From assembly GCA_028717885.1 (NCBI GenBank), contig JAQUMX010000010.1, forward strand, positions 1 to 43,565: a DNA stretch of 43,565 nt, in the 5' to 3' direction. Position numbers and translations under genes: made by a program. The stretch is from Candidatus Omnitrophota bacterium (GTDB lineage Bacteria; Omnitrophota; Gorgyraeia; Gygaellales; Profunditerraquicolaceae). This document shows positions 25,917-41,368 of the stretch, piece after piece; positions within the stretch are counted from its first letter, which is position 1, and each line of letters opens with the position of its first letter. The notes beneath the pieces are model-generated. The model made no database searches. It was not told where the DNA came from and worked only from the letters and a program-made list of their open reading frames with translations.

Positions 25917-26603
25917 TTATCTCTTCCTGAATTTAATGATTGCCTGCGCAATCAAAAGGTCTTCCGGAGTAGTAATTTTAATATTATCGTAGGAACCAAA
26001 TACCACACTTACATTTTTGCCTAATTTTTCTACCAAAGAGGCGTCATCAGTCACTGTTGCCTTGGTAAATTTTTTATAGGCCCTAAAGATCAATTCTTTT
26101 TTAAAAACCTGCGGGGTTTGAATTGCCCAGAGGTTGCTGCGGTCGATATTTTTTTTCACAAAATTTTTCTTATCGACCGCTTTTATCGTGTCCTTAACCG
26201 GAACCCCAAGGACCGCCCCGCCGCTTTTCTTTGCCGCATTGATTGCGGCGCTGATTTTATTAGCCTCGATCAAAGGCCTGGCTGCATCATGAATCAACAC
26301 GTGGCTAGCGTCTTGAGATACCGCCCTTAACCCATACGCCACCGAATCCTGCCTGCGTGCGCCGCCTAAAACCAATGCCTTTATCTTTTTGACTGCGGAT
26401 TTTTCGATACTCTTAAGGATACCGCCGCGGTTAGAGGGATTTACTACTACGATAATTTCTTTTATATCGGGATGCCTGCTTAATACGGCGAGGGAATGCA
26501 TAATTACCGCTTGCCCCTCAAGCTTTACCAGGGGCTTAGGGATTTTTGAGTTAAATCTAGTACCCTTGCCTGCTGCCACTACAATTGCTGCTACGTAAAT
26601 CAT
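25917..26603 (-). CDS. ispD: 2-C-methyl-D-erythritol 4-phosphate cytidylyltransferase
   Basis: [55 protein letters not shown]. Confidence 0.93.
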
Positions 26604-27580
26604 TTATCTAACTTGGTAAAGATCATCCTTCCTGCTTGCGTCTGCAATACGGAAGTTACGGTTACCTTTACTTCCTGGCCGAGGAGCCTGCGCGCATCTT
26701 CCACCACCACCATCGTGCCGTCATCCAGGTAACCAACTGCCTGATTATGCTCTTTACCTTCCTTGAGTAATTTAATCTGCATTTCTTCTCCGGGGAAAAC
26801 CACAGGCTTTAAGGCATTTGCCAGTTCGTTGATATTTAGAATCTTTACGCCCTGAAGGCTGGCTACCCGGTTAAGGTTAAAATCCACGGTAAGCACTTTC
26901 GCATTTAAAAGCTTGCCTAATTTTACCAATTTCGCGTCTACTTCCGCCACCTCGGGCAATTCTTCCTCATGTAAAGTTATTCCCTGTTGCCCTGCTTCTT
27001 TTTGGATTGCATGCAGTATTTCCAGGCCGCGGCGGCCGCGTTGGCGCTTAATCGGGTCTGTCGAATCGGCAATTTGCTGCAGCTCCTTCAAAACAAACCT
27101 GGGAACGACGATTTTCCCCTCGAGAAACTTCGTTTTCATGATATCGATGATCCTTCCGTCGATGATCACGCTGGTATCCAATAAAACAATTTCTTCCGTC
27201 TGGTCCTGCCGGCGCATGCGCACATAAGGAATGATCAGGTTAAATTCATCCTTCCCGCGCAAGCCGATAGACATACCAAGATAGCAGAAAATCAAAGTGA
27301 GGATTATTTTAATCAAAGCAAAGCTACTTGGAGAAATCTGGGTGGTAGCAAAAGCCTCAGAAACCAATTTTGACATAATTAAACCCAGGATCAAGCCGAA
27401 TACCGCGCTCGATAGCCCGCGCACGGAAACCTTACGCATCCCGACTTCCAAAAATATGATCACAACAGCAATAGCTGCGCCCACAAAAGCTCCGAAAAAA
27501 TATTCCTTTTGCCCGGCAGTTTGGTATCCGACAATAGCGCTAAAAACAATAAAAAGAATCCGTAATAATAATAAATTCAT
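26600..27580 (-). CDS. PIN/TRAM-domain membrane protein (YacL family)
   Basis: Four N-terminal TM segments; [55 protein letters not shown]. Confidence 0.9.
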
Positions 27581-27585
27581 ACGTG

Positions 27586-27633
27586 CCTCCTAGCATAGAG
27601 ATGCACACCGGCCTATCCTTTAAGGCCGGGTGC
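27586..27633 (-). repeat. Intercistronic structured element, copy A, straddling the radA stop and carrying the SD of the YacL-like gene
   Basis: Minus strand GCACCCGGCC...GGCCGGTGTGCATCTCTATGCTAGGAGG; 24-nt block differs by 1 nt from the copy at 41308-41331. Confidence 0.75.
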
Positions 27634-28998
27634 TAAAGCTATCTCAAGCGCCTCTTTTAAAGTGGAAACCGCGATTATTTCAATGGAACTTTTTTTCAAT
27701 TCAAGGCCGCGATGGTTATTTTTCGGTATCACGCAATGCTTAAAACCCAATTTTTCTGCTTCCTTAATCCGTATATTTGGCTGGGAAATACTCCTGACCT
27801 CTCCGGCCAAGCCCAGTTCACCCAAGAAAATCGTATCCGCAACCACTGTTTTCCCCTGGTGCGCAGAAGCGATTGCCACAGCAACTGCCAGGTCTGCGGT
27901 AGGGTCTTCTATTTTAATCCCTCCGGCAACATTGACAAAAATATCTTCCAGCTCCAAATGCATGCCGATTCTTTTCTCAAGGACCGCTATCAGCAGGTTT
28001 AAGCGGTTAAAATCAAAACCTTGCGCTTTTCTTGTAGCATAACCAAAAGCGGATTTACTTACCAACGACTGAATCTCTACCAACAACGGCCGGGTGCCTT
28101 CTAAAACGCAGGTAACTACGGACCCGGAAACATCCTTCGGCCTTTCGGATAAAAAAATCTCCGAAGGATTTTTTACTTCTTTTAGCCCCGAGGAAGACAT
28201 TTCAAAAACGCCGATCTCATTAGTCGAGCCAAACCTGTTCTTTACCGCGCGTAAAATCCGATAAAGCGCAAACCTATCCCCTTCGAAATAAAGCACGGTG
28301 TCAACTATATGCTCTAAAACCCGGGGGCCGGCAAGCGTACCTTCTTTAGTCACGTGGCCGATAATAAAAACGGAAGTCGAGGTAGTTTTTGCTAATTGCG
28401 TCAAAATTCCGGCGCATTCCCTGACTTGGCTGACGCTGCCTGCGGCAGAACCGATTGACGGCTCAAAAACCACCTGGATCGAATCGATAATCACAACCGC
28501 GGGCTTTATTTTCTTGATATATTCGATAATAAAAGAAAGATCGGTCTGATTGACAATATAAAGATTGCTTTGGGCACTGCTATTTTCTAAACGTTTTGCC
28601 CGCAGTTTAGTCTGGGCAACCGACTCTTCTCCGCTTACATAAAGTACGGTGTGGCCTTGTTTGCTTAACTGATTGGAAACCTGCAGAGAAACCGTAGACT
28701 TTCCGATACCGGGGTCTCCGCCGATCAAAACTACCGATCCGGGCACGATCCCGCCGCCTAAAACGCGGTCGAGCTCAGCGATTCCCGTCACCAGCCGGCT
28801 ATCCTCTTTTACTTCGATATCCTTTAACAATACCGGATCGTCTTTATAAAGTGCGTTGCGTTCCTTGGATTTCCCCAGAGGCTCGCTAAAATCTTCTTCT
28901 GCAAAAGAATTCCAATTATTACAATCCGGGCACCTACCCAGCCACTTTGGCGACTGATAGCCGCAGTTCTGGCAGGTAAATATTGTTTTGGTTTTCAT
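27613..28998 (-). CDS. radA: DNA repair protein RadA
   Basis: FTCQNCGYQSPKWLGRCPDCNNW; LIGGDPGIGKSTVSLQVS; KNRFGSTNEIGVFEM; C-terminal Lon-like domain. Confidence 0.94.
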   Translation of the reverse strand: MKTKTIFTCQNCGYQSPKWLGRCPDCNNWNSFAEEDFSEPLGKSKERNALYKDDPVLLKDIEVKEDSRLVTGIAELDRVLGGGIVPGSVVLIGGDPGIGKSTVSLQVSNQLSKQGHTVLYVSGEESVAQTKLRAKRLENSSAQSNLYIVNQTDLSFIIEYIKKIKPAVVIIDSIQVVFEPSIGSAAGSVSQVRECAGILTQLAKTTSTSVFIIGHVTKEGTLAGPRVLEHIVDTVLYFEGDRFALYRILRAVKNRFGSTNEIGVFEMSSSGLKEVKNPSEIFLSERPKDVSGSVVTCVLEGTRPLLVEIQSLVSKSAFGYATRKAQGFDFNRLNLLIAVLEKRIGMHLELEDIFVNVAGGIKIEDPTADLAVAVAIASAHQGKTVVADTIFLGELGLAGEVRSISQPNIRIKEAEKLGFKHCVIPKNNHRGLELKKSSIEIIAVSTLKEALEIALAPGLKG

Positions 28999-39438: not shown

Positions 39439-41301
39439 TTACTTATAGTCTAGGGTAACCCGGAAGGTTTCCTCTGCTTTATCCATATCTACGGGAAACG
39501 GATCAAAAGGAGATGCTTCTTTAATGCTGGCGATCACAGTTTGATTTAAATCCTGATTACTGGAAGAAACGATCTCCGGGGTATTTTTTAATTGTCCGTT
39601 CGCAGCCAAGGTAAATGCTACCTCAACCGATCCCTTAGTGTCCTTCGGCTGGTTAAAAAGCGTGAGCGCTTTTACCCGGTCGGTAATCAATTTGAAATAT
39701 TGCTGCTGCGGGCTTAAAGTTTCATATTTTGCTTTGATCAACTTCCCCTCTACCATATTCATTACAACGCCGTTCTTGGGCTTAATTTCGGAATAGTCGG
39801 AAAACGAACTCTCTCCGCTCATGATATGCGGAGTCAAAAGAATTACTAAGTCGGTTTTAGTTACGCTGTCATTGGTGCTCCTGAATAAAAATCCCACGCC
39901 GGGCATATCGCCGATAATCGGAATTTTCTTTACGGTTTTAGTTTTCACATCCTTGGTCAAGCCACCCATAATTACTGTTACGCCATCCTTTACCATTAAA
40001 GTCGTTTCAGCGTCTGAGCTAGTAACGATAGGAATCGTGGTTTTCTGCCCCTCGGAAAGAATATCCGTAGCAGTAGCATCGCTAATCTCGGGCTTAATTT
40101 TCATGGTAATAAAATTATCTTTGTTGATCGTCGGGGTAACGCTCAAGGTAATCCCCGTATCCACGAAATTGACGGTTTGAGAAGTCACGGTATTTCCGCT
40201 GCCGCCCTGAGAGGTAGTAGAAGTAATGTAGGCTTGTTTGACTCCCACGTGAATTTTAGCTTCCTGGTTATTTAAAACCATTACCCGCGGGCTGGAAAGA
40301 TTCTTTGTGTCGCCGATCGTGCGCAAAACATCGATAATTGCCTTATATTTACCCGGCTCGGAAGGCGTGCCGGTTTGCACCGTGCCTAAAAAGAGGGTAC
40401 TATCGGTATTAATCGGCAACGCAGTGCGGAATTCAAAATATTTTTTTATCCAATAATCCCAATTCACGCCCATCTGAAAAGTATCGCTGGGAGCAAGGGA
40501 AATAATTTGCGCATCGATCAAAACCTGGGGCGTTTTTTCGTCAAAGGCGCCCACAATATTAGTAACTTCTTTTACCTTGTCCGGATAATCTTTTACTACT
40601 AACTTATTGGTGCGTTCATCGAATTTAATCGAACCGATGCCTTTGGTGATTACCTCCTGCAGCTTAGTATTTAGCTTTTCTGCCTGGGCGTAATCAAGGC
40701 TAAAAACTTTTGTTTCCATCGGCAAGTCGGCTTTCTGGATAAATTCTTCCATTTGCTTGAGGGTCTCCGGGGCATCGATCAAAACTACGGTATTAGTGCC
40801 TTCATCAGAAACAATCTTACCAATATTAGTCTTAATCTGATTCAATGCTTTCGAGAGGTCCGCGGCTTTTGCGTATTTTAGCTGGATAATCTTTGCCTGT
40901 TTTTTATCCTGGTAGCGCTCGCCGTAAAGCAATTCATAGTCTCTTTGCGACATCACGTTCACAATACCACCCCTAGTATCATATGCCAGGTCATTGGAAA
41001 GGATCACGATTTCAAAGGCATCCTTTACATCCACATCTTTAAGGTAAATCGTGACTTTTCCCGAAACATTTTTTCCGATCACGATATTCATTCCTGCGCG
41101 GGTTGCGAGCATCTTTAAGACATCCACCACATCCATGCCTTTTAGGTCCAGGGAAATTTTGCTTTGCGGTGCCCCAGACACAGTTGCCTGGGCAGCAGCA
41201 GGATTAGCTAAGTCAGGATCAGTGGTTTCCCTGGCAGCAAAGGCCCGCGGCATAAAAAATAAAAACGACACAAGTAAAAACAATACACGATATTTTTTCA
41301 T
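39439..41301 (-). CDS. Secretin (PilQ/GspD-like) with TonB/TolA-like C-terminal domain
   Basis: SLDLKGMDVVDVLKMLATRAGMNIVIG; VTVIMGGLTKDVKTKTVKKIPIIGDMPGVGFLFRS; C-term KGSVEVAFTLAANGQLKNTPEIVSSSNQDLNQTVIASIKEASPFDPFP; ATG at 41301 has SD GGAGG. Confidence 0.82.
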   Translation of the reverse strand: MKKYRVLFLLVSFLFFMPRAFAARETTDPDLANPAAAQATVSGAPQSKISLDLKGMDVVDVLKMLATRAGMNIVIGKNVSGKVTIYLKDVDVKDAFEIVILSNDLAYDTRGGIVNVMSQRDYELLYGERYQDKKQAKIIQLKYAKAADLSKALNQIKTNIGKIVSDEGTNTVVLIDAPETLKQMEEFIQKADLPMETKVFSLDYAQAEKLNTKLQEVITKGIGSIKFDERTNKLVVKDYPDKVKEVTNIVGAFDEKTPQVLIDAQIISLAPSDTFQMGVNWDYWIKKYFEFRTALPINTDSTLFLGTVQTGTPSEPGKYKAIIDVLRTIGDTKNLSSPRVMVLNNQEAKIHVGVKQAYITSTTSQGGSGNTVTSQTVNFVDTGITLSVTPTINKDNFITMKIKPEISDATATDILSEGQKTTIPIVTSSDAETTLMVKDGVTVIMGGLTKDVKTKTVKKIPIIGDMPGVGFLFRSTNDSVTKTDLVILLTPHIMSGESSFSDYSEIKPKNGVVMNMVEGKLIKAKYETLSPQQQYFKLITDRVKALTLFNQPKDTKGSVEVAFTLAANGQLKNTPEIVSSSNQDLNQTVIASIKEASPFDPFPVDMDKAEETFRVTLDYK

Positions 41302-41307
41302 TATTAT

Positions 41308-41368
41308 CCTCCTAGCATAAAGATGCACACCGCCCCAGAAGGGGCGTGCGACACCAATGGCCGGGTGC
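41308..41368 (-). repeat. Intercistronic structured element, copy B, carrying the SD of the secretin gene
   Basis: Minus strand GCACCCGGCC...GCACGCCCC-TTCT-GGGGCGGTGTGCATCTTTATGCTAGGAGG; shares 10-nt and 24-nt blocks with copy A. Confidence 0.75.

Follow-up and report, generated by a model that had tools for sequence, protein, structure and literature searches.

The radA-yacL junction and its element

The window analysed here is a stretch of 43,565 nucleotides from a Candidatus Omnitrophota bacterium, and its minus strand carries two copies, A and B, of a short structured element (Table 1). An earlier note on this DNA had described near-identical copies at 27586-27633 and 41308-41368 of this strand, and both are present at these positions. 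The 24-nt pattern GGTGTGCATCTNTATGCTAGGAGG has exactly two matches in the window (none is expected from shuffled sequences), and GCACCCGGCC is located 5' of it at both.

Copy A lies between radA (27613-28998) and a gene encoding a YacL-like PIN-TRAM protein (26600-27580), both on the minus strand. The radA frame matches the NCBIfam RadA profile (E=1.5e-183), the match stops at residue 451 of 461, and the frame terminates within copy A with A-P-G-L-K-G-TAG. Judging from the sequence, the final RadA residues are encoded by the element, as the note had read them. The 3' block, which it had taken for the Shine-Dalgarno sequence (SD) of the next gene, does have this place, AGGAGG lying 5 nt upstream of the YacL-like ATG. 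Copy B precedes a secretin gene (identified by Pfam; 39439-41301, minus strand, start at 41301), whose product carries a TonB_C domain at its C-terminus (residues 555-620) after the secretin domain, an unusual fusion. The resemblance of copy B to copy A is less close than had been thought, as its hairpin 1 is interrupted. By comparison with L036, a clean nested copy of the same genome, this irregular part is probably a decayed nested or rearranged copy.

Table 1. Features of copies A and B of the element, in coordinates of the window
Feature	Position	Strand	Basis
Copy A hairpin 1, CACCCGGCC-TTAAAGGATA-GGCCGGTG: foot CAC/GTG, bulged C, 6-bp upper stem, 8-nt loop	27606..27632	-	model matches and covariation over copies
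Copy A hairpin 2, T-GCAT-CTCT-ATGC-T, abutting hairpin 1	27592..27605	-	compensatory changes elsewhere keep the pairing
AGGAGG, Shine-Dalgarno (SD) of the YacL-like gene, host sequence older than the insertion	27586..27591	-	empty sites in relatives
radA stop codon TAG, from the element loop	27613..27615	-	sequence; RadA profile end; stop-SD overlap at empty sites
Copy B irregular hairpin 1 region, interrupted by CATTGGTGTCGCACGCCCCTTCTGGGGC	41328..41367	-	model matches
Copy B hairpin 2, T-GCAT-CTTT-ATGC-T	41314..41327	-	
AGGAGG, SD of the secretin gene (start ATG 41301-41299)	41308..41313	-	

Structure of the element

Two hairpins side by side make up the element, a unit of about 41-44 nt. 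The single hairpin that had been drawn across the radA stop codon therefore stands as a structure but not as a single one: downstream of the large hairpin and before the SD, GCAT-CTCT-ATGC forms a small stem of its own, with a pairing that is preserved from copy to copy. Hairpin 1 (27 nt) has a foot of 3 bp, which reads CAC/GTG, UAC/GUA or CGC/GCG; above it come a bulged C, a 6-bp upper stem and an 8-nt loop near UAUCGGAU. Hairpin 2 follows directly, without linker; its stem has 4-6 bp and its loop 4-5 nt, the last of them usually U.

In a set of 58 sequences, chosen partly for pairing, none of the 14 modelled pairs is invariant, and 13 of them have changed on both sides. In a less biased set of 10 sequences, four pairs of hairpin 1 are changed on both sides and 100% of the hairpin 1 cells are paired. 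The suggestion of a structured element was thus well founded, compensatory changes being found over many copies. A CsrA-type GGA site in the loop of hairpin 1 was also considered and was dropped, as GGA is not kept in several copies of the source genome.

Family size and distribution

A search with hairpin 2 and the SD only found 12 places in the source genome (1.47 Mb), and the reversed control pattern had no match there; upstream of these places, in sequence not used by the search, a hairpin with compensatory changes is present in 10. A covariance model without the SD finds about 30-40 copies in this genome, which was therefore wrongly credited with a two-copy element. Searching relatives, as the note had proposed, gave covariance-model matches in 33 of 58 of them. 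A second covariance model, R2, matches 69 of the 285 genomes of the Candidatus Omnitrophota phylum, a scan that scored few candidates per genome, so that its copy numbers are minima. Among these 69 are 43 of the 51 genomes of the same family; none of 26 genomes from other phyla is matched. The named relatives are Candidatus Omnitrophota, and the element is, from the genomes searched, known so far from this phylum only. Exact-pattern scans of viral contigs and genome contigs collections gave no match because the hairpin 2 sequences are genome-specific. The data throughout are draft metagenome assemblies, whose contigs are broken by repeats, and all copy numbers are therefore lower bounds. Genes were named from their translated starts, except radA, the YacL-like gene, the secretin gene, carB and rpsP. 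The repeat is not described in the open-licence literature searched.

Two further structures were seen with copies in relatives. In G025 (about 90 matches), the element belongs to a longer composite repeat whose outer parts are inverted repeats, GGATGA...ACATAAGTTATG (L052, G025:C39:1173-1212). In G023 (L062), a group I intron match overlaps a tRNA gene and adjoins a copy of the element.

Location of the copies

The source genome and G030 are the best sampled, with 64 model matches between them. In 49 of these (24 of 33 in the source genome, 25 of 31 in G030) the copy has sense orientation and its hairpin 2 stops at an SD with a gene of the same strand behind it; a generous background predicts 2.6 of 64. 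Forty-four of the 49 were scored as SD plus start by script and five were added by eye, the gene being frameshifted (prfB) or short, its start non-standard, or the SD a few bases further off. Across all sampled genomes, the start of the SD core is offset by -3 to +4 nt relative to the hairpin 2 end. Copies further upstream are mostly inner nested copies or upstream members of tandem arrays whose last member adjoins the SD. The upstream stop codon, by contrast, is variably placed: it can lie as much as 20 nt within the element or as much as 72 nt ahead of it. Neither of the two outcomes that the note had named as refuting its reading was seen: the copies share one orientation and are tied to start codons instead of being scattered at random like plain REPs, and they are numerous and show covariation. 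Not every copy ends at an SD, however. Copies also occur at A-tracts next to terminators, mostly with a 6-bp hairpin 2, and in the FMN riboswitch aptamer, in tandem arrays and in the loops of existing copies. These non-SD addresses predominate in G026, G092, G117 and G235.

Some copies deserve separate mention. The FMN aptamer (Rfam RF00050) is found at copies L054, L057 and L064, and 16 copies are assigned to it by their flanks; the element lies inside the aptamer in several families (also L071, L158, L167, L294 and others), on the strand opposite to the riboswitch where this was checked. After the copy at L022:1500-1540 (G000:C3:16014-16054), an RsfS-like gene has no ATG, GTG or TTG near the SD; its frame points to ATA or ATT as the start codon, or else to an error in the sequence. 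In other Omnitrophota, unrelated palindromes such as GCCTGCCTGCCGGCAGGCAGG occur directly before the yacL SD (L111 in G031, L113 in G016, L109 in G022, L220, L221, L224 and L226); the position before the SD may therefore be a general landing place for hairpin repeats.

Empty sites, nested copies and turnover

The site between carA and carB is filled in the source genome only and empty in 20 of 21 genomes, most relatives running from carA via an AAGGAG-type SD into carB. Most of the 27 genomes compared at rpsP have no element. At radA-yacL, the filled form GCTTTA-G[element]T-AGGAGG corresponds to GCTTTAAGGAGG in G033/L211 and to GCATTAAGGAGG in G005, and the radA stop overlaps the SD at these empty sites. 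Within a single genus, eno is preceded by a copy in G255 and by none in its congeners G156 and G213. Since empty orthologous sites already have an SD, the SD is older than the element. The proposal that the repeat donates a ribosome-binding site was therefore rejected, all the more as copies without SD exist (tandem, nested, beside terminators and in the FMN aptamer).

Nesting, with one copy sitting in another's loop, is seen for eleven copies. In L051 and L036, excision of the inner unit gives back exactly the canonical outer hairpin with its 8-nt loop and no target duplication; the junctions of other nested copies, like that of the eno copy in G255, would allow a duplication of 1-2 nt. With the tens of copies and the empty sites, these nested insertions support the note's alternative of a mobile repeat.

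Among 110 SD copies, 35 precede genes that are also filled in another sampled genome, two of these matches being doubtful (SecG-like and signal-peptide-like). There are 25 shared pairs versus roughly four expected by chance, a figure that we estimated from about 1400 genes per genome. Element versions at orthologous sites are no more alike than random pairs (6.44 versus 6.26 of 9 positions). The excess of shared target genes could reflect hot targets, concerted evolution or retention for function.

Possible functions

The riboswitch-like or protein-bound translational control first envisaged would be that of a cis-acting RNA in which a ligand or protein reads the loop and bulged C while hairpin 2 gates the SD of a regulon. 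The conserved loop and bulge, the covarying stems, the exact contact of hairpin 2 with the SD and the filling of eno, rpsP, cold-shock genes and others across genera above expectation all speak for it. In the source genome, moreover, CUCU in the loop of hairpin 2 is complementary to GGAG, and the minimum-energy fold shows the two paired. However, this complementarity is not preserved in other genomes, with loops such as UUACU, UUGCU and CGCU, and an SD-sequestering switch acting through the loop was discarded. The downstream genes are unrelated (carB, eno, prfB, rpsP, rpsK, gdhA, pgi, yacL, the secretin gene and others), the occupation of any one gene changes from genus to genus and even among congeners, many copies have no SD, and orthologous copies show the lack of resemblance given above. 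No Rfam family matches the window above threshold (best chance match at the locus, E=5.4), in line with the note's remark that it knew no such riboswitch class. Such control is thus very unlikely.

A second possibility is that the element, although of mobile origin, was domesticated, copies before an SD being retained because they stabilise the mRNA or set the rate of translation. This reading is unlikely. The same genes are occupied repeatedly across genera, as in the eno leader, filled in G000, G030 and G255 and by a composite in G012, and compensatory changes keep the stems of old copies; most relatives nevertheless have no copy at each gene tested, and the element is predicted to leave SD accessibility unaltered. 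The predicted probability that the SD is unpaired was 0.60 in the native sequence, 0.61 with the element deleted, a form compared for 31 copies, and 0.44 with the element shuffled at the same composition. By this prediction the element does not make the SD less accessible, whereas shuffled filler does.

Comparison with known repeats

REPs and REPINs are short imperfect bulged hairpins found in tens of copies per genome, mostly extragenic and clustered, and regarded as non-autonomous mobile DNA (PMC3116915, PMC8266576); in Escherichia coli, the stem bulge is required for the action of TnpA-REP (PMC8266576). The present element shares with them the mobility, the short bulged hairpin, the tens of dispersed copies, mostly extragenic, and the clusters. 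It could then be supposed to be an ordinary REP moved by a REP-associated Y1 tyrosine transposase (RAYT), the more so as tandem copies occur and Y1 transposases are encoded by 43 of 58 relatives, with two in the source genome. REP-type repeats, however, are marked by a GTAG or CGTC tag and keep near to where the preceding gene ends, their distance to the following gene being variable (PMC3733652). Flank profiles of 108 SD copies and 60 others contain neither tag: on the 5' side they show no more than a richness in purines, and on the 3' side they consist of the SD or are rich in A. Unlike REPs, the element has two different adjacent hairpins in fixed order and sense orientation, and its address is the opposite, fixed relative to the downstream SD and variable relative to the upstream stop. 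Nor was a link to Y1 genes found: the source-genome contigs that carry them have no model match, and no Y1 gene was found in G020 and G030, two incomplete genomes with about 30 copies each. An ordinary REP is accordingly the least credible of the readings weighed here.

CGTC-tagged palindromic repeats, including some Rickettsia palindromic elements, have variable stems and no dedicated transposase is known for them (PMC3733652). The present element is also a short palindrome with variable stems, but whereas those repeats have an 8-9-bp stem and a 4-5-nt loop, it is untagged, with a bulged 3+6-bp stem, an 8-nt loop and an SD address. MITEs such as RUP, ERIC and Correia are non-autonomous and intergenic, insert in transcribed regions and can lengthen upstream frames (PMC10969869). 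The element resembles them in these points, the lengthened frame being that of RadA, and shows empty and filled orthologous sites (carA-carB, rpsP, radA-yacL and eno). Unlike them, it is much shorter, and it appears to cause no or very short target duplication and to lack terminal inverted repeats of a known transposase, PF01797 being the partner family searched. With SD-proximal riboswitches and RNA thermometers it shares a structured RNA ending at the SD, but it is mobile, serves no single pathway and is predicted to fold without closing the SD. It is best grouped with the short mobile palindromic repeats, as a variant of its own.

A model for the insertion of the element

The family, its structure and orientation, its address, the empty sites and the nested insertions are shown by sequence comparison. 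Because of the family, the empty sites and the nested copies, the element is probably neither a riboswitch nor a donor of ribosome-binding sites but a non-autonomous mobile repeat of two hairpins that inserts as a discrete unit. Its spread can be pictured as follows. An enzyme acting in trans would move the element, which would insert as a whole unit, with no or very short target duplication, at positions left unpaired in the transcript: chiefly the 5' edge of an SD, but also a terminator A-tract, the FMN aptamer or the loop of an existing copy. Self-folding of the unit would leave the SD, and the distance from SD to start codon, undisturbed, and the insertion would therefore be tolerated even before essential genes. 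On this simplest account, insertions of a mobile unit would persist where they are harmless. Three observations weigh against this account: Y1 transposases (PF01797) are absent from the two copy-rich, incomplete genomes mentioned above, with no mobilising enzyme identified; the above-expectation filling of orthologous genes in different genera could mean retention for function; and non-SD addresses predominate in the four genomes named above.

The exact abutment would reflect a target preference and not selection alone. That copies abut the SD even in roomy leaders suggests such a preference, selection on position being also possible. It is conceivable, though rather doubtful, that the element homes to translation-start signals, its machinery recognising the purine tract of the SD or acting on mRNA at unpaired positions, and that subtypes of hairpin 2 go with particular addresses, the 4-5-bp form with SDs and the 6-bp form with terminator A-tracts.

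For an uncultured phylum, the element provides a traceable mobile element that accounts for extra hairpins and altered protein ends in its genomes. It makes testable the question of whether an SD is recognised by a mobile element or the position is held by selection alone. With the last bases before the ribosome-binding site as its main landing place, it could tune the translation of essential genes without breaking genes.
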